Made by a program: the position numbers and the translations under genes
The notes under the pieces: model-generated
What the model was told of the DNA's origin: nothing
Databases searched by the model: none
The model's input: only the letters and a program-made list of their open reading frames with translations
In this document: positions 201-31,245 of the stretch, one piece after another
How positions within the stretch are numbered: position 1 is the stretch's first letter
Layout of the letters: each line of letters starts with the position of its first letter
NCBI GenBank assembly: GCA_905235605.1
Contig: CAJOMF010000007.1
Coordinates: forward strand, 1 to 44,355
DNA length: 44,355 nucleotides
Reading direction: 5' to 3'
Origin: an uncultured bacterium
GTDB taxonomy: Bacteria > UBP6 > UBA1177

Positions 201-719
201 ATGAAAAAAATTTTGATGCTTATGATCGTGTTTTCGATGTTTCTGACTGTTTCCTGCAACAAAAAGATGATCAAGGGGACTAACATCGAGGAAACGCCGG
301 ATTCAAAGGAGATCCTGACTGTTTTCGGCTATTATCTCAAAGGTTTCAAAGAGCAGAATCCCGAAATTTTTCTTGAGTATGTTTCGAAAGAGTATTACGA
401 CACGAACGGAACAGACGAGGCTGATGACGACATAGACTACGACAAACTTATCGAGATCCTCAATTCCGATGCGTATCACAGCCTTGAAAAGGTGAGCATG
501 ACCACCATAATCAAGGATCTTTTCTTCAATGATGCCGAGGACAAGGCGGAGTTGATTTATTTTTATGAAGTTCGCTTCAAGATGAAGAGTTCCGTTCCTC
601 CGACAGAGGAAAACGCCTTTATTCAGCATGACGGAATGACAAACCAGAAACTTTCAGAAAACAATAAAATGAAATTTGTCAAAGAAGACGGCAAGTGGAA
701 AATAGTGAGCGGCCTTTAG
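201..719 (+). CDS. Putative lipoprotein of unknown function
   Basis: Lipoprotein signal peptide MKKILMLMIVFSMFLTVSC; RBS aggaggt upstream; 172 aa. Confidence 0.75.
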   Translation: MKKILMLMIVFSMFLTVSCNKKMIKGTNIEETPDSKEILTVFGYYLKGFKEQNPEIFLEYVSKEYYDTNGTDEADDDIDYDKLIEILNSDAYHSLEKVSMTTIIKDLFFNDAEDKAELIYFYEVRFKMKSSVPPTEENAFIQHDGMTNQKLSENNKMKFVKEDGKWKIVSGL

Positions 720-1636
720 ACAAAAACTTTATTTCCGAATATTATTCCGAGAATCAAAACAAGCGGAAAAACTGAAAAAACAAAGGGAAAAAAACGACCT
801 CCGGGCAGATTTGTTTCTTTCTGCAGCAGAACTGCCGAGCCGACTGCTGTTGAACAGGTTACTGTCAGCAGGATAAGATCTGCGATATTCAATTGTTTCT
901 GCAAAAAGTCGAACATGACAATCGTGGAGAAGAATCCTGCACACAAAGCCACTCCCAAAGCTTTGAGATCGCGTTTGACAATAGTTTTGATCTCAGGTGC
1001 AAAGCATATCGAAAAAGCAATTATCACGGCTGTAAAATAGACGAGTGAAAGAAAAACATGGTTTTTGAAGACAGTGTGGATTTTGAAAACCGCCCGAGTC
1101 CTCGGAGCGACGCCGAAAAACTGGATTCCGGCAAGGAACATGCTTCCGTAGAAACCTGCAATGATGTTTAAGATCGTTTTGGCGACACTTCTCGAAATGA
1201 AGTAGCTTAAAGCGACAAAAGCGATGAACAGGGCGATCATCTCAAAGAAAAACTGGCTGTCTTTCTCACTGAACCAGTAAAAAGTGGCTATATCGAAAAT
1301 TATTTTTGAAAAGTCACCGCGCAGATACTGCAACCTGAGGTTTTCATCTGAAATCCATGCATGGATAAGCGGAACGTATATCACAGGACTCAGCAGAGCC
1401 AGATATGGTATTCTGCCGGCTTTGAGACCGAGGATGTATCTTGCGCAGAGTGCGAAGTAGAAGAATACGAACGTGAACCACGCACAGTGGTGGGTCGCAA
1501 CGAAATATGAAAAGAAGGGTTTTTTAGCAAATATTGCCGTTTCAAGGTAAACTCTTGAAAATATTACTGAAAATAGAAAGACGAAAAGAAAGGTTTCAAT
1601 GATTTTTGCGTATTTTTTATCTTTTAAAAAGAGCAA
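716..1636 (-). CDS. Polytopic membrane protein, unknown function; last gene of the VTC/TolC/HlyD operon
   Basis: 306 aa with many hydrophobic segments; starts 8 bp after the DUF4956 gene stop. Confidence 0.7.
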   Translation of the reverse strand: MLFLKDKKYAKIIETFLFVFLFSVIFSRVYLETAIFAKKPFFSYFVATHHCAWFTFVFFYFALCARYILGLKAGRIPYLALLSPVIYVPLIHAWISDENLRLQYLRGDFSKIIFDIATFYWFSEKDSQFFFEMIALFIAFVALSYFISRSVAKTILNIIAGFYGSMFLAGIQFFGVAPRTRAVFKIHTVFKNHVFLSLVYFTAVIIAFSICFAPEIKTIVKRDLKALGVALCAGFFSTIVMFDFLQKQLNIADLILLTVTCSTAVGSAVLLQKETNLPGGRFFPFVFSVFPLVLILGIIFGNKVFV

Positions 1637-1644
1637 AATATCTC

Positions 1645-2355
1645 CTAAAGTTCAACCGTCGTTTCCTGAAGCAGCAGAGATACGTTGTTCATTGCCGGAA
1701 TGTCGGCTTTAAGCTCTTCTATAAGCTCTTCGGCGGTTTTTTTCGGTTTCATTTTGATGTGGTAGGCGTATTCGAGCCTTTCTCCGACTGCAATTTCCTT
1801 CAGTGTGATGAGTGCAAAGACTTTGCAGTATTTGTTGAGTACGGCTGTCATTTTCTGAATGTCGAGCTCGTCAGGAGAGATGTTGAAACGGAGTATTCCG
1901 TCAAAGTAGGAGGCTTTGCTTACCTGCGAGAAATAGAGGACGAAAGCGGCGATATCAAAAAGCATGATCCCGACAAAAGCCATGAAGTATGCTCCGATTC
2001 CGCACGTTATGCCGGCAGCGAGGGCCGCAAAAAGGAAGATTATGTCGCGCGGATCCTTGAGGTTCGTTCTGAAACGGATGATCGAAAGGGCGCCCAAAGT
2101 GCCGATACCGATAGCGACGCTGTCACCTATAGCGTGGATGACCATTGCCGTGACGATAGATGAAAGCATGACTGCCTGAACGAAGTTGCGGGAGTAGGAA
2201 AGTCCCCGGAAGGTTTTTACATAGGTGAGTCCGATCGATACCGAAAGAATGAATGCCAGTGCGGCTGAAAAAATAACTCTCAGCGACGAGAGCGAGGATG
2301 AGGCTAAGTTTGCAGTTAAAAAATCAGTCATATATCTCTCCGTAGTTGGAAACAT
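1645..2355 (-). CDS. DUF4956 domain-containing membrane protein
   Basis: TM segments plus the characteristic ...GTLGALSIIRFRTNLKDPRDIIFLFAALAAGITCGIGAY... block; overlaps the VTC gene. Confidence 0.85.
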   Translation of the reverse strand: MFPTTERYMTDFLTANLASSSLSSLRVIFSAALAFILSVSIGLTYVKTFRGLSYSRNFVQAVMLSSIVTAMVIHAIGDSVAIGIGTLGALSIIRFRTNLKDPRDIIFLFAALAAGITCGIGAYFMAFVGIMLFDIAAFVLYFSQVSKASYFDGILRFNISPDELDIQKMTAVLNKYCKVFALITLKEIAVGERLEYAYHIKMKPKKTAEELIEELKADIPAMNNVSLLLQETTVEL

Positions 2356-3145
2356 TGTACCATTTGTTGTCGGGTTTCTGATTGCGCAGGACTCTGAGTA
2401 TTCCGTATCTGAATTTCGAAAAAGCCATCTTTTTCAAGTCAAAACGCTGGACGAGGTCCACCATCCAGAGCGGAAGGTTGGAGACCTGCCCTTTGAGTTC
2501 GAGAACGCACTGCGCTTGCGGGCCGAAGATCGACGTGGTGTCGTAGCTCTCCATCCTTTTTGGATCGGGTTTTACGTTGAAATCATGTTCTTCGCAGCAC
2601 TGAAGGTTCGCGTCGAAAGTGACCCGTGCGTATTCGTCGGTTTCGCTTATCCACGCCATCCTGTCGTATTGGGTGAGGACCTGCGGCTGCGCGTTGTATG
2701 AAAGGGCGAGCGACTGGAAAAGATCCATGTTTTTCGCATCGTTTCCCTTGAGACCGAGTTCTGCGGCCGCTTTTGTCATGTAAAATATCTTCTCGATCTC
2801 CTCAGATTTTACTTTCACTCTGTATTTCTGCTTGTTTTCGCCGAATTTGCACTTCACTTCCCAAAAATATGGCGGGACAGGATCTTCGCCGTAAGAACGT
2901 ATCCTCATGTTGAAGCGGTTTTCCTTCTTTTCGAGCCTGTTGTTGAGAAAAGTGTGGAAAGGTGTGTCGAAATAAAGGTTGTTTATCCTGTAGAATTTTG
3001 TCGGCGACATTTCGGAGTATTTGTCGAGGTAGCAGTAGATTTTTACGAATTCGGAAATAGGTTTTATCAAGTCGCGCGGAATCAGGTATTTGTATTCGAA
3101 GCGCTGCAGTACAGAAGGTATGTCGATTTGGTTTACAGCAGACAT
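2324..3145 (-). CDS. VTC domain / polyphosphate polymerase-like protein
   Basis: TTM/VTC-like pattern: FEYKYLI, NMRIRSYG, FWEVKCKF..KQKYRVKV, YDRMAWIS..RVTFD, VLELKG, KMAFSKFRYGIL. Confidence 0.88.
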   Translation of the reverse strand: MSAVNQIDIPSVLQRFEYKYLIPRDLIKPISEFVKIYCYLDKYSEMSPTKFYRINNLYFDTPFHTFLNNRLEKKENRFNMRIRSYGEDPVPPYFWEVKCKFGENKQKYRVKVKSEEIEKIFYMTKAAAELGLKGNDAKNMDLFQSLALSYNAQPQVLTQYDRMAWISETDEYARVTFDANLQCCEEHDFNVKPDPKRMESYDTTSIFGPQAQCVLELKGQVSNLPLWMVDLVQRFDLKKMAFSKFRYGILRVLRNQKPDNKWYNVSNYGEIYD

Positions 3146-4383
3146 TACTCAGCCTTTGTTCCGTATAGCGAGTTTTTGCCCGATTCTTCCTCGAAAACTC
3201 CGGTGAGGCGGCAGAGATCGATGTATACCGCATATATTTCGGCTTCGAGTTCAGCCGTTTTGATCTCCTGTTTCACCATTCTTTCCTTGAGTTTGAGTAT
3301 TATTATCGGATTGACACCTTCGAGCGAGGAATACTTGGCGAGAATCCCGCTTTCCGCCTCTTTTTCTCTCTTTTCGACCATGAGTTCATACTGCCTGATC
3401 TTTCTTCTGAGCATAAGGATATCGCTGTTCAGCGCCGCTTCGGCGAGGCGTTTTTCGGCATAGAAGTCGGAATCGTCACCGATAGATTTCAGCCGTTTTT
3501 TGAGGATGGAATTCTGATTGCTTTTGAAGCCGGGAATCGATATCGCAAAGCCTATCGAGAATCCGCGCGAAGGCCTGTCGTTGCGGTTACCTGTATCGAA
3601 TTCCAACGCGATATATTTGAGCCAGTCGCGGTCTTTTGCCTCTTCAAGCGCGATCTCGCTCTGTGCAATGAGCATCTTTTGTCTGTGAAGGTCGTCGAGC
3701 GCCTTTGAATCGGCATTTTCGGGGTCGAGCGAATCGATGAATTCCTTTATTTCTCTGACTGAAATTATTCTTTCACGGTCGAATGCCGGAACTTTGTTTC
3801 TTCCTGCCGCCTGAACATCGAGGATGACAGAGTCGATTTCCGATTCAAGTTCTGTCTTTTGCATCTCGATGTCGGTGATTTTGTCCTCGATTTCCAGAAT
3901 ATCGACATCGGTCGTTTTTTCAGAAAGAGAGGCCATTTTTTCAGTGACTTTCTTTTTATCTTCAAGGATTTCCTTCAGCGAATCGAGAAGGGAAAGCGCC
4001 TTTTTGTTTTTGATGTATGTAAGCACCGAGTTGAATTTTTCAAAAACAACTTCCGAAAGGGCGAGTTTAGACTGCGCTTTCAGAATGTTTTTTGAATTTT
4101 CTCTAAGTTCTTTCGAGCGTTTGGTTTCGCCGAAACCTCTGAAATAAAGCCTGAGAGCGTAACTCTGCTCAAGAATGTCGAAATTTCCCGTTTCGCTTCG
4201 GAATTCAAGAGCTTTGACAACGGGAGTGTCGCCGCCTTTTTCAAAAGCGCTGCCGAGCTCACGCCCCGATTTGACTCTAGGATCGTCAGCCGCAGAACTG
4301 ATGTATTCCGAAATCGTCATCTCTTCGCAAAAAACAGTGAACGGAAGAAAGAAGATGAGGAAAAACGGCAAAATTTTTTTCAT
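3145..4383 (-). CDS. TolC-like outer membrane efflux protein
   Basis: Signal peptide followed by long heptad-rich helices typical of the OEP/TolC family; start and stop overlap the neighbouring genes. Confidence 0.75.
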   Translation of the reverse strand: MKKILPFFLIFFLPFTVFCEEMTISEYISSAADDPRVKSGRELGSAFEKGGDTPVVKALEFRSETGNFDILEQSYALRLYFRGFGETKRSKELRENSKNILKAQSKLALSEVVFEKFNSVLTYIKNKKALSLLDSLKEILEDKKKVTEKMASLSEKTTDVDILEIEDKITDIEMQKTELESEIDSVILDVQAAGRNKVPAFDRERIISVREIKEFIDSLDPENADSKALDDLHRQKMLIAQSEIALEEAKDRDWLKYIALEFDTGNRNDRPSRGFSIGFAISIPGFKSNQNSILKKRLKSIGDDSDFYAEKRLAEAALNSDILMLRRKIRQYELMVEKREKEAESGILAKYSSLEGVNPIIILKLKERMVKQEIKTAELEAEIYAVYIDLCRLTGVFEEESGKNSLYGTKAE

Positions 4384-6395
4384 ATTCTGCCTAAATTCAT
4401 GAATTTTGAGTTTTCTTTCTGACCAAGGTCAAAAAATATGAAAAACTCTCCGTCTGTGTTGACTGCGATCCCTTCAGGTTTGAGTGAGGTAAAATTTCTG
4501 ATAAGCGAACTTCTGCCGTTTTCAAACTTGAAAAATCCGCCGCATTTTTCGTTTGTACATGAAGCAGTGAAGAAAAATTCGTCTTTCGATATCATGTGAA
4601 TATCTGATATCCTTAAATTTTCAGGTAAATCTTCAATAAATATGACCTGAACTCGGTTTTCCGAAATTTTGTTTTCCGAAAAGATTTTTCTGTAGTCTGA
4701 AATCTCGAAAATCACACCTTTTTCTTCAAAAAGCGGATCTTTGAAAGCTATGAAAAGTGAATCTTCGAGAACGAACATTCCTTCGGCATCGATTGATTTT
4801 TCATAGATTCCTTTTTTAAGAAAATCTGCCGCGGAACCTTCAGATTTTTCGGCGAAATCTTTGAGTATTTCATAAAAATCGACCGAATTTTTAAGTTCCG
4901 CTTTTCCCTGCGTCAAAACAAAGGAGGCAAGAATGCGCCTTTCGGGTTTAAGTTTTCCTTTTTTGGAATAACTCATGGACGACATGACGAGATAAGAAGA
5001 TTCAGATTCTTTTGCAATTGATTCAATGTCGTTGATTTTATTGAGATTTTCTATTTTTATACTTTTTGCCGAACCGTCTTTGCCGACTTCAAAAAGAAGA
5101 GGCTGCTTTTTTTCGGTTTCATCCGAAACGACGATGAAACTGCCGGTTTCTTCAACAAAAACTGCGCCTGAAGCCTCGATTTTAAGCGGTTCATCCGAAA
5201 CGATTTCGATTAAACCCTTATCTCCCTCGCCATTTTGGAGAGGGTTTGGGGTGAGGTCTTTTGATTTATTCAGTTTTTTTTTATAAGGCTCTTTGGCGGA
5301 GAGCTCCGAACGCGGGTAGGAAAAAAGCAGTTTGGCTATGTTGTCCCAGATGTTTTTGCCGTATGCGATGTTGACTTTTTCACCGAGGATAAAACCGTTG
5401 TTTTCGGGAATTTTGACAACGATCTCTCTTCCCCAGAGCGGGAGATTCTGGTTTTTCAGAAGCCTTGACGGAAGCGGTATTATTCTTCCTCCTAGACCTG
5501 TAACGACGCCCGATACCGGAGTTTTGTTGTTTGTAGAAGTTATCGTGACCGTTTCGCCGATTTTTATCGCCGAGAAGTGCGATTCAGGGATGTAGCCTTT
5601 GACGAAAGAGGGTTCGTTGTTGATTATCGACATGACCGGAGAGTATGCCGCGACTTTTTCACCGCCTTTCAAAAAGACTCTTTCACCGTTGCCGTTTTTG
5701 TTGAAAACGCTGCCGATGATTCCTGAAAACGGAGCGTAAAGTGCCATGTCGGCATTCTTTTTTTCAAGTGATTCAAGCTCTTCAGTGAGTTTCTGAGTCT
5801 CGATTTTTTCCGGCGTGTAGTCTTCTGAAAGCATCCGTTTGTACATTCTGTTGGTTTCGGCAAACTCTTTTCTGCGCTCTTCTTTTGCGGATTTCAGTGC
5901 TTCGATCTGGATCTCGATCGGATTTTTCGCCGAATCGTCATGTTTTATCCTGACGCTTTTGAGCCCGCCTGCAAGCTCTCTATTGATTTTGATCTGGTTT
6001 TCGAGGGTTTTTATCTGCGAATCGAGTTCACTTATAACGGCGCGTTCCTGTGCCTTGTTCTGAAGGATCTTTGATTGGATCTCGGCTTTGCTCATTCCTT
6101 TTTTTGCTTCGAGCTGAAGAAGCTGCGTGCGGATCGTGGCGATTCGGAAGGAAAGATCCTGACTTTCAAATTCCGCGAGTTTCTGACCCTGCGAAACAGT
6201 GTCACCTTCCATAACGAGAACTTTTTTGATGCTTACAGGGATTTCAGTGTTGATCGTCGTTTCGTTCGATTCGGCAAAACCCTGAAAATTCGTTGTTTCC
6301 TGACCTGAATATACGAGGATCCCAACCACGGCGGCAATCAAAAGTGTAATAAAAACAAGCAATAAGCCTATGCCGTGGATCCTGTTGCTATGCAA
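4380..6395 (-). CDS. HlyD/RND-type periplasmic adaptor fused to a C-terminal DUF3616-like beta-propeller
   Basis: N-terminal TM, lipoyl-like PVSIKKVLVMEGDTVSQGQKLAEFES, coiled coil, second half-motif LYAPFSGIIGSVFNKNG; C-terminal half with IEASGAVFVEETGSFIVVSD, IDAEGMFVLEDSLFIAFKDPLFEEKGVIFEI and LKPEGIAVNTDGEFFIFFD. Confidence 0.8.
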   Translation of the reverse strand: MHSNRIHGIGLLLVFITLLIAAVVGILVYSGQETTNFQGFAESNETTINTEIPVSIKKVLVMEGDTVSQGQKLAEFESQDLSFRIATIRTQLLQLEAKKGMSKAEIQSKILQNKAQERAVISELDSQIKTLENQIKINRELAGGLKSVRIKHDDSAKNPIEIQIEALKSAKEERRKEFAETNRMYKRMLSEDYTPEKIETQKLTEELESLEKKNADMALYAPFSGIIGSVFNKNGNGERVFLKGGEKVAAYSPVMSIINNEPSFVKGYIPESHFSAIKIGETVTITSTNNKTPVSGVVTGLGGRIIPLPSRLLKNQNLPLWGREIVVKIPENNGFILGEKVNIAYGKNIWDNIAKLLFSYPRSELSAKEPYKKKLNKSKDLTPNPLQNGEGDKGLIEIVSDEPLKIEASGAVFVEETGSFIVVSDETEKKQPLLFEVGKDGSAKSIKIENLNKINDIESIAKESESSYLVMSSMSYSKKGKLKPERRILASFVLTQGKAELKNSVDFYEILKDFAEKSEGSAADFLKKGIYEKSIDAEGMFVLEDSLFIAFKDPLFEEKGVIFEISDYRKIFSENKISENRVQVIFIEDLPENLRISDIHMISKDEFFFTASCTNEKCGGFFKFENGRSSLIRNFTSLKPEGIAVNTDGEFFIFFDLGQKENSKFMNLGRI
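5215..5258 (-). repeat. REP-like imperfect palindrome inside the adaptor coding sequence
   Basis: Minus strand reads acctcaccccaaaccctctccaaaatggcgagggagataaggg, with stem ccctctcc / ggcgaggg around loop aaaat; translated as LTPNPLQNGEGDKG. Confidence 0.7.
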
Positions 6396-6471
6396 AGCAC
6401 TACCTCAAAGTAAAAAACAACGACGAAAGATTATACTGAAAAAAATCTTTTTATAAACTTTTTTTAAAGGG

Positions 6472-8241
6472 TTAAAGTTCAAATTCTTTAAAGAAATACT
6501 GCGAATTTTCGGCTTTGATACCGACTGAAATCGTTTCAACTGCGGGATCAAGATTGATTTTGACAGTTTCGTGCATGAGGTAGGGAATGTCGTAAAGTTT
6601 TTCACCGTCAAAAATGCGGAGAGCCGATCCTTCAAGGTCAGGCGTGAAGTTGAATGAAACGGTTTTTACTCCTTCGTTTTCTTCAACTTCCGGCTCGATT
6701 TCGGCAGCAGAAGGTTCGACCGGATCGCGCCAGAAAACGGTCATCGGGTCGCCAAGCATGACGATCGATTTTTTGGTCCATGTCCAGCTGTCCTTGTTTA
6801 CGACCGGAACATTGATGTTCACCATTTGTATCGGCGGATTGAATGTGTCGCTCTGCGGCATGTTGAAATGAGCGTAAAGATAGCTTTCTCCGATCACGGA
6901 GTAGGGGAACGCGAACATGTTTTTCATCATTTCGTCTATGAACTGGCTTCCGCCCGCGATGCCCAGACCTGTTGTCGTGTTGCCGAGGTAGACTATTGCG
7001 CCGCCTTTCGGAGCGTTCATCAGGTTTTCACCGGCTGAATCACCGTTTTTGTATCCGAACTGTCCTGCCTCACATGCGCAGCTCAAAAAGAACGGAAGGG
7101 TTTCGTTTTCAAGGTTGTAAGCCATAGTTCTGCTAAAATCGCGGTCAGGATCAGTCCCCTGTTCGCAGGTGAGAAGCCATGGTGCGCCGTGTCCGCTGTG
7201 GACGATGAGGTTCATTCCCTCTTCGATAGCCGCTTTTTCGCTGTCGTTGTCAAGGTATTGTGCCGTATTTCCGCCGGGGAAAGGAGTCGATTGAGTATAA
7301 AGTTTCTTTATTGAATAGTTCATCGGGATCTGGCTTATGGTTTTCCCTTCGGTTTCGAAGTAGTATCCAGCGTTTACTTTTATCCCGGAAAGTTCAGTCG
7401 CAATGTTTGCAAGAAGAAGTGATTTCGTTGTGTGAGCCGCGTTGAAAGCGGTATGGTGTTTTACGAGTTTTGAAAAATACAGTTCCGCTTCTTCAACTGT
7501 AGAAACTGAGATCCTTCCGACTGCGACATTTGCAATGAGAGCGGGAACATCTTCATCTTCGGCGTATACTCCGTTGCCGTTGAGATCCCAGTTGCTGAAG
7601 TCGGCGTAGTAAAGATCGCTGTAAAAATCGTCGGTGTAGTCGGCGATCCCGAGCGGGAGTTCGAAGTGGTCGTGAACTTCTCTCGAAGGAATTTCTTCAA
7701 TATCGCCGCCTAAAACAAGATATCTGAGCCCTTCGATTGCCTTGACGTAGTCTTTTATCGCCTTCTGCGTGTCGTTCATCGGATCATCGTCGTCGCATAC
7801 AGCATTTTCGCAGATATTTTCAACGGTTACGACTTTTGTATTTATTCCTGTTACTGTGTGGAAAACGGCAAATTTTTTGAAAACATCGGCAAATTCTTCT
7901 CTTGTTACGATCAAAGCATCGGTTTTTGTCTCAAAATCGTGACTCGGTTCCGCAACGGTTGTTGTTTCTTTTTCCGGATCTTCGCTGTTTTCGTCAGGAT
8001 CAGTGGTCGGGTTTTCGTTCTGATCTTCCTGATTTTCTCCGCTGTCAGGATTTTCATCGGACGGTTCTGTATCCGTTCCGTTATCAGGATTGTCTGAAAC
8101 ATCGTCGTCATCGGACGAAGCCTCTGCCGGATCGTCCGTTTCATTGTTGTTTTTAACGATTCTGGCAGAGTTTTCACCGCATGAAACGATAAAAATGAAA
8201 GCTGAAATTGTGCATAAAACCAAAAGCAATTTTTTCAACAT
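6472..8241 (-). CDS. Lipoprotein with peptidase C25 (gingipain-like) domain
   Basis: Lipobox ...FIVSC; acidic linker; YLVLGGDIEEIPSR, LIVHSGHGAPW (His) and PFFLSCACEAGQFG (Cys) catalytic-type motifs. Confidence 0.8.
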   Translation of the reverse strand: MLKKLLLVLCTISAFIFIVSCGENSARIVKNNNETDDPAEASSDDDDVSDNPDNGTDTEPSDENPDSGENQEDQNENPTTDPDENSEDPEKETTTVAEPSHDFETKTDALIVTREEFADVFKKFAVFHTVTGINTKVVTVENICENAVCDDDDPMNDTQKAIKDYVKAIEGLRYLVLGGDIEEIPSREVHDHFELPLGIADYTDDFYSDLYYADFSNWDLNGNGVYAEDEDVPALIANVAVGRISVSTVEEAELYFSKLVKHHTAFNAAHTTKSLLLANIATELSGIKVNAGYYFETEGKTISQIPMNYSIKKLYTQSTPFPGGNTAQYLDNDSEKAAIEEGMNLIVHSGHGAPWLLTCEQGTDPDRDFSRTMAYNLENETLPFFLSCACEAGQFGYKNGDSAGENLMNAPKGGAIVYLGNTTTGLGIAGGSQFIDEMMKNMFAFPYSVIGESYLYAHFNMPQSDTFNPPIQMVNINVPVVNKDSWTWTKKSIVMLGDPMTVFWRDPVEPSAAEIEPEVEENEGVKTVSFNFTPDLEGSALRIFDGEKLYDIPYLMHETVKINLDPAVETISVGIKAENSQYFFKEFEL

Positions 8242-8349: not shown

Positions 8350-10242
8350 TTAGAACTCGAAAACGAGGCCGAATTCGAAGTTGTTTTTCATTTTGTTGGA
8401 GAGGTCGAAGCTCTTGTCACGCCAGAAATCGTTGATTTTTTCAAATTTGTAGCCGACGAAAAGGCAGGTGTTGACGACACCGTTTTCCTTCATTTTTTTT
8501 GATGAAGAAGAATCCATCCAGTTTAGCGAGAGCATGAGACCGACTGTTCCGTGAAGTCCGAATGTGCCTCCGTTTTCGGTAGTGTGACCTCCGTCGCGTA
8601 CCCACCACGGATAGTAGTCGATCCCGCCTGCGATGTAGGGATAGAGCGGAAAATCGTAGACAGGGCGCAGTTTGAGTTCGGCTTTGAGCGGAAGAAAGTG
8701 CATTGTCGTTCTGTCTGAGCTTTTTGTGCCGTCGGAGCGCATCGCTCTGCCTTTGAATCTGGTGTAACCGATGCCGCCGATAAAGGTTATCCGGATGTAT
8801 TCAGTCGGTATCGCAAGACCGAAAGTGAACGAAGGAAGCCAGCGGAGCTGCGATCCTGCGACATCCTTGAACGGGGTGCCGTTTATTTCGCTGTCGATCT
8901 GCGGATAGTAGAGAAGGTTCGTGAAACTTGCTTCGCCGTGGATCGCATTTCCTCTTGTCTTTGCCGAAAGATCCTGGAACGGTACGGCGAGAAGCAGGAC
9001 GAAAAAGAGTGCCAAAAGCGCTTTTCTGCCCGATTTAACGGTGAAAAACGCAACTAAAACCAACCATGAAATCATGAGTATCCTTCCTAAAACTGTTGTA
9101 AAAAACCAAGCTGTTACGACAAACGGCATGAGCATAGTTCTCGAAGCCGCGCGCAGTATCGGAGAACTTTTGATTGTTTCAGCCGGATAGCTGCCGTATT
9201 TGTAGTATGCTGCAATAAATTTTCTGCCGAGACTGAAGTTTGCAAGGACCGAGTCGCGGAATTGGCGCAGAAGGGCTACGCTCGGGTGGAAGTAGCTGCC
9301 GAAACCAGCCGTTGCAACAAAGCAGAAGCCGCCGTCATCCTTGCCTCCCTGTGATTTGTAGTTGCTCCAGAAACCGTATGTCGTGACGGCAGAAGCATCG
9401 ACAGAAATCGAAGCGGTGTCGTCGCTGTTGCCTGCCAAATCTTCAGCGGTTACTTCGACGGTGTAGGCTCTGCTGCTCGATCCTTCGTCGTTGTTTATGA
9501 ACTCGTAACCGTTCTTTCCTTTAACGGTGAATTCCCAGATCTGATTGTAACTGCTTGAATCTACTGTTGAATCGTATTCGAGAGTCGTCTGGGTTTCGGT
9601 ATCGTCTCCGCTTTTGAAAATTCCGGTGACTTTCGCATGGTAGGCGCCGATCTTTTCTTTTGATGAACCGTCTTCGGTGCTCGGCGGAGTGACTCTGATG
9701 AGCATCTGCTTGTTGCCGCCTTCGACTTCTATCGCTGAAGGTGCTTTCGGAGGCTTGTTGTCAAAAACGACTTTTATGGTCTTTTCGGCATATTCCGGAA
9801 CTGAAGATGTGCTGTCATCATCGTCATCGTCATTTTCTTCATCATCGTCGTCGTTTTTGTTCGACGAAGTGTCGAGTTCGATCCTGACTCTTATGCTGTA
9901 AGTTCCGTCGGCAACCGATTTGTCGTCTGAATCTTCAAGCGAACGGACATTTTTTATTGCATTGTAAAGTTCTTCGCCGGAAAGTGAGAGCGAATTGTCG
10001 ATGCTCAGGAATCCGCTGTCGGTTGAGGTAAAGTCAAAAGTTTTTGTTTCACCGTCTATTTCCGCCTGTAAATAGGCTTTTTTTACAAGATTCGGTTTCG
10101 GCAGGTCGTAGTAAAATTTGAGCGACCCTTCGAAATTCATGTTTGAGTGCCCCGGCTCTGTTTCAACATTCGTGATGTAGCTGTCGGCAAAAAGCATGGA
10201 ACAGCACAGAGTGAGTAGAAAAAACGTAATTTTTTTAGTCAT
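8350..10242 (-). CDS. CFI-box-CTERM-type protein fused to an outer-membrane beta-barrel-like domain
   Basis: Start MTKKITFFLLTLCCSMLFADS at 10242; CFVATAGFGSYFHPSVALLRQFRDSVLANFSLGRKFIAAYYKYGS... motif; C-terminal alternating strands ending in aromatic F (FGLVFEF). Confidence 0.75.
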   Translation of the reverse strand: MTKKITFFLLTLCCSMLFADSYITNVETEPGHSNMNFEGSLKFYYDLPKPNLVKKAYLQAEIDGETKTFDFTSTDSGFLSIDNSLSLSGEELYNAIKNVRSLEDSDDKSVADGTYSIRVRIELDTSSNKNDDDDEENDDDDDDSTSSVPEYAEKTIKVVFDNKPPKAPSAIEVEGGNKQMLIRVTPPSTEDGSSKEKIGAYHAKVTGIFKSGDDTETQTTLEYDSTVDSSSYNQIWEFTVKGKNGYEFINNDEGSSSRAYTVEVTAEDLAGNSDDTASISVDASAVTTYGFWSNYKSQGGKDDGGFCFVATAGFGSYFHPSVALLRQFRDSVLANFSLGRKFIAAYYKYGSYPAETIKSSPILRAASRTMLMPFVVTAWFFTTVLGRILMISWLVLVAFFTVKSGRKALLALFFVLLLAVPFQDLSAKTRGNAIHGEASFTNLLYYPQIDSEINGTPFKDVAGSQLRWLPSFTFGLAIPTEYIRITFIGGIGYTRFKGRAMRSDGTKSSDRTTMHFLPLKAELKLRPVYDFPLYPYIAGGIDYYPWWVRDGGHTTENGGTFGLHGTVGLMLSLNWMDSSSSKKMKENGVVNTCLFVGYKFEKINDFWRDKSFDLSNKMKNNFEFGLVFEF

Positions 10243-11257
10243 TTGTATCCCCGAATATTGTTTCAGCAATTCTTATTGCGTTGTATGCGGCACCTTTTCT
10301 GACGTTGTCGGCAACGACCCATGCGGAAAGATAGTTTTTGTGCTCGCGGCCTTTTCTCAGCCTGCCGATGAAGACTTCGTTCCTGCCCGAAGAATCGATG
10401 AGGGTCGGGTAGAGCAGCTGTTCGATGTCATCCATGAGGATCATCTCTTCGTTTTCTTTGATTCTGCGGTGGATCTCGTTGATGCTGCACTCTTTTTCAA
10501 GTTCGAACCAGACCGTTTCGGCGTGTGAATAGAAGGTGGGAACGCGGACTGTCGTGACGTCGATGTCAAGATTCGGCATAGAGAGGATCTTGCGCGATTC
10601 GTTTATCATTTTGACCTCTTCTTCACAGTAGCCGTCTTCGTAGAAAGGACCGATCTGCGGAATGAGGTTGAAAGCGATTCTCTGCAAAAAGACTTCGGGT
10701 TTGACTTCGTGGAAAGAAAAGAGCGCCGAAATCTGCGAACGGAGCTCTTCAATACCTTTTTTGCCGGCGCCGCTGACACTCTGGTAGGTGCTGACGACCA
10801 TTTTTCTGATCCCGAAAAGCTCTTCAACGATTTGGATGAAAGGGACAAGCTGGATCGTCGAGCAGTTCGGATTTGCAATGATTTTCGATTTCGTGGTTTT
10901 GAGGATTTCTCCGTTTACTTCGGGAACGACAAGCGGAATATCGTCATCCATCCTGAACGCCGAGCTGTTGTCAACAACTATCGCGCCTGCATTGACGAAG
11001 TGTTTCGCGTAATCGAGAGCGACCCCGGCACCTGCACTGAAAAGAGCCAGATCGACCGGATGCTTTTCTATTTCCTTTTCATTCAGCGGGATAACGTCGA
11101 TTTCTTTATTTTTGTAAGTCACCGTGAGACCGAGCGAATTGTCGCTTGCAAAAGGGTAAAGTTTATTGATCGGAAAATTTCTCTCTTCAAGAATCGTAAT
11201 AAATTCAAGGCCGACAAGACCGGTCGCACCGACTATCGCAACATTCAAAGGTTTCAT
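10235..11257 (-). CDS. asd: Aspartate-semialdehyde dehydrogenase
   Basis: MKPLNVAIVGATGLVGLEFITILEERNFP, IVVDNSSAFRMDDDIPLVVPEVN, IIANPNCSTIQLV; MKPLN start preferred to the ORF-track start. Confidence 0.93.
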   Translation of the reverse strand: MKPLNVAIVGATGLVGLEFITILEERNFPINKLYPFASDNSLGLTVTYKNKEIDVIPLNEKEIEKHPVDLALFSAGAGVALDYAKHFVNAGAIVVDNSSAFRMDDDIPLVVPEVNGEILKTTKSKIIANPNCSTIQLVPFIQIVEELFGIRKMVVSTYQSVSGAGKKGIEELRSQISALFSFHEVKPEVFLQRIAFNLIPQIGPFYEDGYCEEEVKMINESRKILSMPNLDIDVTTVRVPTFYSHAETVWFELEKECSINEIHRRIKENEEMILMDDIEQLLYPTLIDSSGRNEVFIGRLRKGREHKNYLSAWVVADNVRKGAAYNAIRIAETIFGDTND

Positions 11258-14842: not shown

Positions 14843-14919
<77 letters not shown>

Positions 14920-27782: not shown

Positions 27783-29315
27783 TCAGTATTGTCCTGTTCC
27801 GGGCTTGTATTCCGCCGCATCCCACTTAAAGTTGTCGATAAGAACAAGCGAATCATATACGTGATCGTAGAGATCCCAGATAGCGAGTCTTACGGTTATT
27901 ACTTCTCCGCCGACAACGTTTCCGCGTGTCGTGAGCCAGCCCGTTCCGCCGTTTGACGCAAAACCGGTTCCCTGCAGTTCTTCAGTTCCTTTACATGATT
28001 CCTGGGTTGCAGGATAACTGCTTACAGGGGAACATTGTGTGAAAAGCCCTGATGGAGCCAGATTTATACCGACAGGGTTGCCTGCAGCATCCATAGCCAG
28101 ATTTTTGTCGGCAGGATTCTGCAGAGTCGGATCACTGCTTGTATAGTCCGAATCAAGCAGTGCGATGAAAAAGTCATTATATTTGCTGCAAATATAGTTT
28201 GGATACTCTTTGGTGATAAAGTATATGTTGAAGCTGAACGATTTTGCAGTTTTGGGAGTTCTTATCCTCATTCGGAGCATTACAGCATCGTTTACAGAAC
28301 CGCTTGTTCCTGACGACGAGCATGAACTTGCTGAGGGAAAGCTGCCGCCGTTTGCTGCAACCCAGTCTGCCGGTGCCCCGGATGTTGTCCCACCGCTGTA
28401 ATCAGGATTTGTAATAGGATTCCCGAGCTTGCTTGAAGTCAAAGCAAGCATTAAATTGCCTTCTTTCGGTTTGATAACGTTTCCGAAAGCCGAAAGAAGT
28501 CCATTACTGCCTGCGTGCGCAGTACCGCTGCCGGTTGGAAACGATATTGTGGCGTCAATAAGTCCCCATTCGTTGGAATCCTCGGTCGTCGTTTTGCAGA
28601 TTCCTATTGCCTTTGCATAATCGAAAGGATTGGTGGAAGATTCTGAAACACCGGATTCGCAGTCTGTCTCAATTACCTCGTATTCGCACATGTCGGAAGG
28701 ACTGTTTGCATCCCAAGCTTCTTTCGGAAAAGGGCATTGATCGGTCGTTTCGCAGCAGTCGTAGCATGAGCCGACACCGTCGCCGTCGAAATCTGTTCCG
28801 TCGTCAACAACGCCGTTGCAGTCGTTGTCTATTCCGTCATGGCAGAGTTCTTCGCCGACCTCGCTGACCGGAAGGACTTCGCCTTCGCATTTTCCCCAGG
28901 TTCCGTCTTCCCTGCATGTTCTTACAGCAGCTCTGCACGGACCGACATTTTCAGTCGCCGGATCGCCCTGATATTCGCAGGTCTGTTTTTTGCCTGGAGT
29001 GCAGCTTCCGGTTATCGGGTCGTCGTCTCCGTCCTGTTTGCCCGGAGTGCTGCTGTCATCGGTATCGGTCTCGCTTCCGTCGCTGCTGCTGTCAGTATCG
29101 CCGTTGTCACCTCCGCCGTTATTGCCGCCGTTAGAGCCGTCGGTGCAGATTTTCTTTTCGGGATCGCATGTCAGGCCGAGAGGGCAGTCAAGAGTCGACT
29201 CGCAGATTTGACTGTTTCCGCTGCCGGATGAACCGCCATCCTCATCGTCTTCGCCGCAGGAAATAAGACAACATACTGAAATCATTAACATTAGCGAAAA
29301 TTTAAACAGTTTCAT
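27783..29315 (-). CDS. Lipoprotein with MopE-like DGIDNDCNG motif and choice-of-anchor-L-like C-terminal domain (paralog A)
   Basis: Lipobox SVCCLISC; DGIDNDCNGVVDDGTDFDGDG; FNIYFITKEYPNYICSKYNDFFIALLD; GTGWLTTRGNVVGGEVITVRLAIWDLYDHVYDSLVLIDNFKW. Confidence 0.8.
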   Translation of the reverse strand: MKLFKFSLMLMISVCCLISCGEDDEDGGSSGSGNSQICESTLDCPLGLTCDPEKKICTDGSNGGNNGGGDNGDTDSSSDGSETDTDDSSTPGKQDGDDDPITGSCTPGKKQTCEYQGDPATENVGPCRAAVRTCREDGTWGKCEGEVLPVSEVGEELCHDGIDNDCNGVVDDGTDFDGDGVGSCYDCCETTDQCPFPKEAWDANSPSDMCEYEVIETDCESGVSESSTNPFDYAKAIGICKTTTEDSNEWGLIDATISFPTGSGTAHAGSNGLLSAFGNVIKPKEGNLMLALTSSKLGNPITNPDYSGGTTSGAPADWVAANGGSFPSASSCSSSGTSGSVNDAVMLRMRIRTPKTAKSFSFNIYFITKEYPNYICSKYNDFFIALLDSDYTSSDPTLQNPADKNLAMDAAGNPVGINLAPSGLFTQCSPVSSYPATQESCKGTEELQGTGFASNGGTGWLTTRGNVVGGEVITVRLAIWDLYDHVYDSLVLIDNFKWDAAEYKPGTGQY

Positions 29316-29421
29316 TTTATCCTCCTATCCTCCAATAAGGAAACAAAATTATATGATTATAATTTGATGATAAAAAATAATCAAGGGATTTATTTCGGTT
29401 TTTTCGGAAAGTTAAGTCGGT

Positions 29422-31122
29422 TTAATATTGACCGGTCCCCGCTTTTGCAGGCTGCGGAAGCCATTTGAAGCCGTCGAGAAGAACGGTCGAATCCCATGAA
29501 TGGTCGGGACCGTATCCTACAGTTCCCTGTTCCCAAATCGCCAGTCTTAAGGTGATTGTTTCGCCCGGAACGACGTTTCCGCGGGTCGTCAGCCAGCCAG
29601 TGCCGCCGTTTTTCGGGGAAAAAGCATCAAAACCCGTTCCGTCAATAAGTGATCCGTCGGTGCAGTAAGATGAAAAATCATAGCTGCTGTTCTGATAACA
29701 TGCCGTGAAAAGACCTTCAGGAGCAAGGTCTACGCCGACGAAGTTGCCGTTATAATCTTTTGCAAGGTTTTTATCGTAAGGATTCTGGAATTCATCGTTC
29801 GGATACTGAGTGTTATGCTCCGAATCAAGCAGAGCGATGAAGAAATCGTTGTAGTTGCTTGAAGAGCATACTGTACTCGGATATTCAACCGAGAAAAAGA
29901 AAAGGTTGAACTGGAAAGCACGTGCATTCATCGGAGCTTTCACTTTGAGGGTAAGCATGATCGGATCCTGAACATGCGGGATCTCTTTGCCTGCACACTG
30001 ATCTGTGAGACCGTCTTCAACAGTTGTTCCGCCGCATGTCGGTGACTTCGGAATCGCGCAGTTCGGCATCATGTTTATCCAGTCTGCCGGGATCGTGCTT
30101 GCAGTTTTCATGTCTCCGGCATCCAATGTGGCCACAGTGGCGTTTTTCGTCGGTTTGTTCCAGGGACCGGTGGAAAGGATAGCCATTTTAGAGCCTTCGA
30201 GCGCAACGATGTTGTTTCCGAATTTCGGTTCGGCTGCAAATGTTTTGTAGTTTGCATCGTAATACGGCAGAGGAAGGCTTGTCCTGTTGGATCCGTTGAT
30301 TTTTTCGGTTACCGGATCACCGGCAAGTGAAAGTGTCGCTGAAACAAGCTGATCGCCGCATATTCCCATTGCGTGGGCGAGTTTTACCGCATTGCCGGGG
30401 TAGTCTTCAAGGGCGAGAGGATCATCTTCTCCGTCACATGAAGTCGATTCATCGATTTCGCCGTTGCAGTTGTTGTCAACTCCGTCTCCCTGCATTTCAT
30501 AAGCACCCGGATATATCGTTGCAGGATCGAATCCGTTGCAGTCGCTGGCAATTTCGCAGCAGTCGGAACACGCGCCGTAGCCGTCGCCGTCGAAATCGGC
30601 TCCGTTGTCGACTGTGCCGTCGCAGTCGTTGTCTATTCCGTCATTGCAGAGCTCGTCACCGAATTCGGTAACAGGAAGAACTTCGCCTTCACATTTTCCC
30701 CATGCACCGTCTTCTTTGCAGGTCCTTATTCCGGCTCTGCACGGGCCGACATTTTCAGTGGCCGGATCGCCCTGATAAGGACAGGTCTGCTTTTTGCCGG
30801 GAGTGCATGGTCCTGTTATAGGATCGTCGTCTCCGTCCTGTTTGCCGGGATTGTCACTGGCGGTATCAGAATCGTCACCGGTGTCTGAAACTTGACCGGA
30901 ATCTCCAGAGTCGCTGTAATCTCCGGAATCTCCTGAATCACCGGAACCGCCGCCCTGCGTACATGTCCCGGTGGATTTGTCGCATGAGTAACCTATCTGA
31001 CAGTCAAGGTTGGATGAGCAGGTTTTGCCCTGAGCACTTCCGTTGTCGTCTTCATCACCAGAGCATGAAACAAAAATCAGAACAAAAATCGACAAAATTG
31101 AAAGAAGGTAAAATTTTTTCAT
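29422..31122 (-). CDS. Lipoprotein with MopE-like motifs and choice-of-anchor-L-like C-terminal domain (paralog B)
   Basis: Lipobox LIFVSC; two acidic motifs (DGIDNDCDGTVDNGADFDGDGYG and DGVDNNCNGEIDE); FQFNLFFFSVEYPSTVCSSSNYNDFFIALLDS; C-terminus shared with paralog A (GTGQY). Confidence 0.8.
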   Translation of the reverse strand: MKKFYLLSILSIFVLIFVSCSGDEDDNGSAQGKTCSSNLDCQIGYSCDKSTGTCTQGGGSGDSGDSGDYSDSGDSGQVSDTGDDSDTASDNPGKQDGDDDPITGPCTPGKKQTCPYQGDPATENVGPCRAGIRTCKEDGAWGKCEGEVLPVTEFGDELCNDGIDNDCDGTVDNGADFDGDGYGACSDCCEIASDCNGFDPATIYPGAYEMQGDGVDNNCNGEIDESTSCDGEDDPLALEDYPGNAVKLAHAMGICGDQLVSATLSLAGDPVTEKINGSNRTSLPLPYYDANYKTFAAEPKFGNNIVALEGSKMAILSTGPWNKPTKNATVATLDAGDMKTASTIPADWINMMPNCAIPKSPTCGGTTVEDGLTDQCAGKEIPHVQDPIMLTLKVKAPMNARAFQFNLFFFSVEYPSTVCSSSNYNDFFIALLDSEHNTQYPNDEFQNPYDKNLAKDYNGNFVGVDLAPEGLFTACYQNSSYDFSSYCTDGSLIDGTGFDAFSPKNGGTGWLTTRGNVVPGETITLRLAIWEQGTVGYGPDHSWDSTVLLDGFKWLPQPAKAGTGQY

Positions 31123-31245
31123 GTGAAACTCCAAAATCAACACAATAAAACAAAAAATTCTAAGCAGAAAAGAAAAAAAATCAAATGCTTTTTTTTTATC
31201 GAAAAGATGCTATATTGCCCCGGATTTTTGTTTCGGGGGTATTCA

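Follow-up and report, generated by a model that had tools for sequence, protein, structure and literature searches.

A VTC and DUF4956 operon linked to a HlyD/OEP channel, a candidate machine for the synthesis and secretion of a phosphate polymer

The operon and its proteins

The window (the whole 44,355-nucleotide stretch of DNA that was analysed, taken from a gut bacterium with a rumen-type assembly) holds an operon of five minus-strand genes, HlyD, OEP, VTC, DUF4956 and MEM5, in the list of open reading frames (Table 1). Neighbouring genes overlap by 4, 1 and 32 bp in that order, and an 8-bp gap separates DUF4956 from MEM5. The initial annotation described five minus-strand genes that overlap or lie within 8 bp of each other, and a check of the reading frames found this to be exact. 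A chance arrangement of reading frames is excluded because the operon is kept in 12 of 12 loci of the same genus, together with a convergent lipoprotein gene; at one of these loci, L026, the contig is 3.5 kb long and breaks off within the OEP gene, so HlyD is not visible there. The genes upstream of HlyD vary among the genus loci, and therefore the conserved unit begins at HlyD. A promoter-like site lies about 35 bp before its start. The C25 peptidase-like gene 76 bp upstream was rejected as a member of the operon. It is found in only part of the genus loci, and several have other genes at that spot.

Table 1. Genes and other features of the window
Feature	Position	Strand	Evidence or remark
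Convergent lipoprotein gene	201..719		accompanies the operon in the genus loci
MEM5, 8-TM protein without known family	716..1636	-	in 12/12 genus loci
DUF4956 membrane protein, 236 aa, 4 TM and C-terminal cytosolic-type domain	1645..2355	-	PF16316; alignment; TM count
VTC-domain polyphosphate-polymerase-like protein, TTM fold, 273 aa	2324..3145	-	PF09359; Vtc4 profile match
Outer-membrane efflux factor OEP, TolC/VceC-type, 412 aa	3145..4383	-	orthologue profile against VceC/MtrE
HlyD/EmrA-type membrane-fusion (adaptor) protein, 671 aa	4380..6395	-	Pfam HlyD_D23/HlyD_3; propeller by AlphaFold2 and PDB fold search
Promoter-like site TTTATA-16-TATAAT	6430..6457	-	consensus scan, 10/12 matches, weak evidence
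C25 gingipain-type peptidase-like lipoprotein with acidic linker	6472..8241	-	PF01364, E=3.9e-49
CFI-box-CTERM domain, then MXAN_2562-type outer-membrane beta-barrel domain	8350..10269	-
tRNA gene	14843..14916	+	sole Rfam match in the window
Two adjacent large proteins matching a MopE-type Cu-binding motif	27783..31143	-	PF11617; protein at 29422..31143 exceeds the cut-off, its neighbour is just below

The gene identities first proposed hold, since the VTC, DUF4956 and HlyD domains exceed curated Pfam cut-offs. The VTC protein matches PF09359 with E=1.1e-43. A profile built from 24 VTC proteins of many families matches yeast Vtc4 (3g3q) with E=4.9e-25. In the alignment K200, R264, R266, K281, K294 and R361 of Vtc4 correspond to K19, R81, R83, K98, K107 and R162 of the window protein, and R373, E426, K428, S457 and K458 correspond to R174, E216, K218, S243 and K244. 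All 11 of these tunnel residues, including K244 and E216, are invariant in the 24 sequences. The tunnel had been described as intact, and every mapped position is indeed kept relative to Vtc4; loss on alignment was not seen. TTM hydrolases and cyclases are reported to have four glutamates in place of the basic residues that guide the chain as it grows in Vtc4 (PMC4641920). Three of these four acidic-patch positions, those other than Glu-90, were mapped: R15 and K218 are basic, and E17 is acidic where Vtc4 has T198. Since the tunnel residues are kept and R15 and K218 are basic, with E17 the exception, the active site looks polymerase-like by sequence, with one bacterial peculiarity.

The HlyD protein exceeds the Pfam cut-off for both HlyD_D23 and HlyD_3. 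AlphaFold2 models residues 405-655 or so as a C-terminal beta-propeller, mostly at pLDDT 80-95; the adaptor region, with 12 close sequences, is modelled poorly, so only the propeller is reliable. A PDB fold search matches this region to solved beta-propellers. The gene had been read as a HlyD-propeller fusion, and the evidence agrees with that reading. The nearest named Pfam family is the Phytase-like PF13449, a weak match in the window (E=0.034) that exceeds the cut-off in the orthologue at L072. Homologous propellers are fused to VTC-linked HlyDs at L030 of the same family, at L165, L166 and L168 in the phylum of genome G314 and at L072 in the phylum of G055. The HlyD of L031 has no propeller, and the fusion is therefore probably both old and optional. 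A stand-alone protein weakly like the propeller (E=0.0034) is encoded at L092:4727-5773 (+), near a VTC locus without an adjacent HlyD.

The OEP assignment comes from orthologues. PF02321 (OEP) stays under the cut-off on the window protein (E=0.013). A cross-phylum profile of nine orthologues matches VceC (1yc9) over nearly its full length with E=1.4e-12, and also MtrE, and the L072 orthologue matches Pfam OEP with E=3.4e-25. The gene once called TolC-like thus encodes an outer-membrane factor.

Hydropathy predicts a single N-terminal TM segment in HlyD, only a signal peptide in OEP, nothing in VTC, four segments in DUF4956 and eight in MEM5. DUF4956 matches PF16316 (E=3.3e-11) and has weak Pfam similarity to MgtC. 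Its alignment has G88, R96, D104, G115 and G119 invariant and R94 and D101 nearly so, and its profile has no significant match in the PDB (best E=0.33). It is the sole polytopic protein common to the linked operons by hydropathy, where L076 and L080 have DUF4956 with no TM call at the threshold used. MEM5 has no Pfam or NCBIfam match, its AlphaFold2 model (pLDDT 49) is too poor for a fold search, and it occurs only in the window's genus, being absent from L030, L031 and all other loci scanned. The five-gene unit of the initial annotation therefore stands for the recurring HlyD/OEP/VTC/DUF4956 core, and MEM5 falls outside it. There is no ABC, MFS or RND pump in the cassette, and none is among the five window genes. 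Because of this, DUF4956 is on gene content the most likely inner-membrane partner if HlyD and OEP transport anything. L143 also has, further on, an OEP/HlyD set distinct from the cassette, with an ABC-2-type permease that was identified by eye.

A different account of these proteins is that VTC is a TTM phosphohydrolase or another triphosphate enzyme, that DUF4956 is a regulator like MgtC and that HlyD and OEP form an ordinary exporter whose pump is encoded elsewhere. TTM folds have diverse activities, and the MgtC similarity, weak as it is, points the same way. E17 also belongs to the acidic patch of the TTM hydrolases (PMC4641920). However, the polymerase-type equivalent of K458 and the two basic replacements are kept, and HlyD and OEP adjoin VTC and DUF4956 in several phyla with no pump gene in the cassette. 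We consider this account unlikely.

Distribution and inheritance of the cassette

Two other genera of the family carry HlyD-OEP-VTC-DUF4956 without MEM5. The order is GHG-GHG-PPDK-HlyD-OEP-VTC-DUF4956-LTD in G016 and HlyD-OEP-VTC-DUF4956-CotH in G018, where GHG is our own label for a recurring lipoprotein family. The window's phylum has VTC in 15 of 28 genomes, the G055 phylum in 94 of 195 and the G314 phylum in 136 of 168; in a broad sample, 46 of 386 genomes have it. A search of plasmids gave two distant matches only. The neighbourhoods around VTC were scanned with locally built HMMs, and OEP was counted unless the contig ends. VTC+DUF4956+HlyD(+OEP) occurs in four families of the G055 phylum (L072, L076, L077, L079-L082), in L134 (G260), L135 (G411) and L141-L143, and in 13 of 20 loci of the G314 phylum (L165-L174, L181, L182, L184); these loci were partly hand-picked, so the proportions are not frequency estimates. 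Since G260 and G411 did not turn up in the matches for the other phyla searched, at least five phyla have the cassette, at least four of them beyond the window's own. A survey of relatives had been suggested as a check on the link between VTC+DUF4956 and TolC/HlyD, and the link is present both inside the family and across several other phyla.

It could be argued that HlyD/OEP and VTC/DUF4956 have nothing to do with each other in function, and that chance or loosely shared regulation has placed them side by side. Genes for HlyD and OEP are common, and many diderm VTC+DUF4956 loci lack them, which means that the exporter is not obligatory. Many of these loci carry CotH. However, the linkage spans at least five phyla, with three different gene orders (HlyD-OEP-VTC-DUF4956, VTC-DUF4956-HlyD-OEP and DUF4956-HlyD-OEP-VTC) and holds throughout the genus. 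In the partly hand-picked loci, 29 HlyD matches lie within 4 kb of VTC (686 kb) and 6 lie further out (768 kb). Coincidental linkage is largely refuted by the neighbourhood survey, and we regard it as very improbable.

The trees fit a cassette that was inherited as a unit, with long branches limiting the detail. On a VTC tree of 75 rows the label "HlyD-linked" takes 3 changes, compared to 14.8 when shuffled, and none of 500 shuffles was as low. The window VTC groups with L135 and L141-L143 in a starred clade. The VTC-linked HlyDs of several phyla fall largely together when compared with a small set of other HlyDs, but they are not strictly one clade.

The cassette often has secreted neighbours in other phyla, namely CotH, LTD and PPDK-like proteins. 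CotH is in the same cluster at L031, L072, L134, L135 and L165. Predicted lipoproteins with a PPDK_N ATP-grasp domain lie beside the cassette in three phyla (L030:4615-6555, L082:7193-9142, L168:13385-15475), and it was unexpected to find this ATP-dependent phosphotransferase fold in proteins that are apparently secreted. The GHG lipoproteins contain cysteines, have no Pfam match over the cut-off and adjoin the cassette at L030:2514-4628, L079:13292-14455, L081:6630-7730, L082:5090-6175 and L168:15430-16641.

It is also worth considering what else the family has for polyphosphate metabolism. Searches of ten of its genomes found no PPK1, PPK2 or Ppx/GppA, although they did give matches in control genomes. 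With no classical polyphosphate enzyme found, VTC is the only candidate polyphosphate synthase found in the family. This does not prove that VTC replaces PPK, because the family members without VTC (G015 and G017) lack PPK1, PPK2 and Ppx/GppA too.

A phosphate polymer or a modified surface

We tentatively favour the cassette as a machine that makes and secretes a phosphate polymer, either polyphosphate or a close relative, and rate this somewhat short of an even chance. In this scenario VTC would build up an anionic phosphoanhydride chain in the cytosol, using ATP. DUF4956 would be a channel that feeds the chain through the inner membrane, in parallel to the TM domain of the yeast VTC complex. 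From there the dedicated HlyD adaptor and an OEP channel would take it across the outer envelope, and the propeller would lie in the periplasm. The Vtc4-type tunnel, the two basic replacements in the acidic patch, the recurrence in at least five phyla, the clustering of VTC and of HlyD, the position of DUF4956 as sole shared polytopic protein and the lack of PPK in the family all count for this scenario. Counted against it are E17 as one hydrolase-type residue, the resemblance of DUF4956 to MgtC as much as to a channel, the loci without HlyD and OEP, and the lack of PPK in family members without VTC. Deletion of the polymerase-like gene of S. intermedius, for which no aggregation effect was reported (PMC12345266), also counts against it.

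The recurrence of CotH, LTD and PPDK-like lipoproteins beside the cassette suggests that the polymer is used at the cell surface, perhaps as a phosphate donor or matrix. It also opens the chief rival scenario, in which the cassette serves to modify or construct the cell surface and no free polyphosphate is secreted. A phosphate polymer or high-energy phosphate from VTC and DUF4956 would feed secreted enzymes, CotH kinases and PPDK-like ATP-grasp lipoproteins, that phosphorylate surface proteins or an exopolysaccharide, and HlyD and OEP would export a different molecule or act as a scaffold for the assembly. Mutants of S. intermedius in the DUF4956-like and CotH genes had altered Pel levels and aggregation (PMC12345266), in line with such a role. 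However, the window operon has no CotH, LTD or PPDK gene, CotH is absent from the genus loci as well, and the CotH in the window's own genome is unlinked to the operon. Among the families scanned, no polysaccharide synthase is common to the linked operons, with Pel genes checked by eye at a few loci. This scenario is possible, if doubtful.

The secretion scenario has a stronger form. Chain growth by VTC, not an ATPase or proton pump, would drive polyphosphate through DUF4956 and the HlyD-propeller/OEP channel to the cell surface, which would be a new class of trans-envelope secretion. We think this form rather doubtful. If it is true, synthesis-driven polyphosphate at the surface may be a matrix or a phosphate donor for secreted kinases.

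Relation to known systems

The cassette is like the yeast VTC complex (Vtc4 with Vtc1/2/3) in its TTM catalytic domain, its tunnel residues and its pairing of an enzyme with a membrane partner. By analogy, we propose that synthesis may be coupled to translocation. Unlike in yeast, no SPX and no DUF202-type TM domain is found in the five proteins (Pfam/NCBIfam), the membrane partner is DUF4956, HlyD and OEP are added, and export would be outward and not into a vacuole. The pairing of a HlyD/EmrA-type adaptor with a VceC/TolC-type factor in one operon is like tripartite systems such as EmrAB-TolC and type I secretion. Unlike these, the cassette has no ABC, MFS or RND inner-membrane pump, and in some lineages its adaptor bears a propeller.

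There is also a precedent in the Gram-positives. VTC, DUF4956 and CotH are known to accompany Gram-positive Pel loci as an accessory set (PMC7112168, PMC12345266), SIR_1592-1594 in S. intermedius (PMC12345266). The likeness is that VTC adjoins DUF4956 and that G018 and other phyla have CotH as well; the difference is that ours is a diderm version with HlyD and OEP, and that the window operon lacks CotH. The arrangement of DUF4956, polyphosphate polymerase and CotH was stated as not found outside Pel loci (PMC12345266). Our survey bears on this statement, since the triad and HlyD/OEP occur together in several lineages and no Pel genes were noticed by eye in the neighbourhoods of L030, L072, L082 and L165. 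The triad is already known, but the version with an envelope channel is apparently undescribed: we found no description of it in the open papers searched, a set that leaves out preprints and most subscription journals. Nor did we find in the literature any biochemical characterisation of bacterial VTC and DUF4956, though both are widespread. Their conserved pairing with an envelope channel in diderms offers a concrete hypothesis about what they do, and a testable route to polyphosphate at the bacterial surface.
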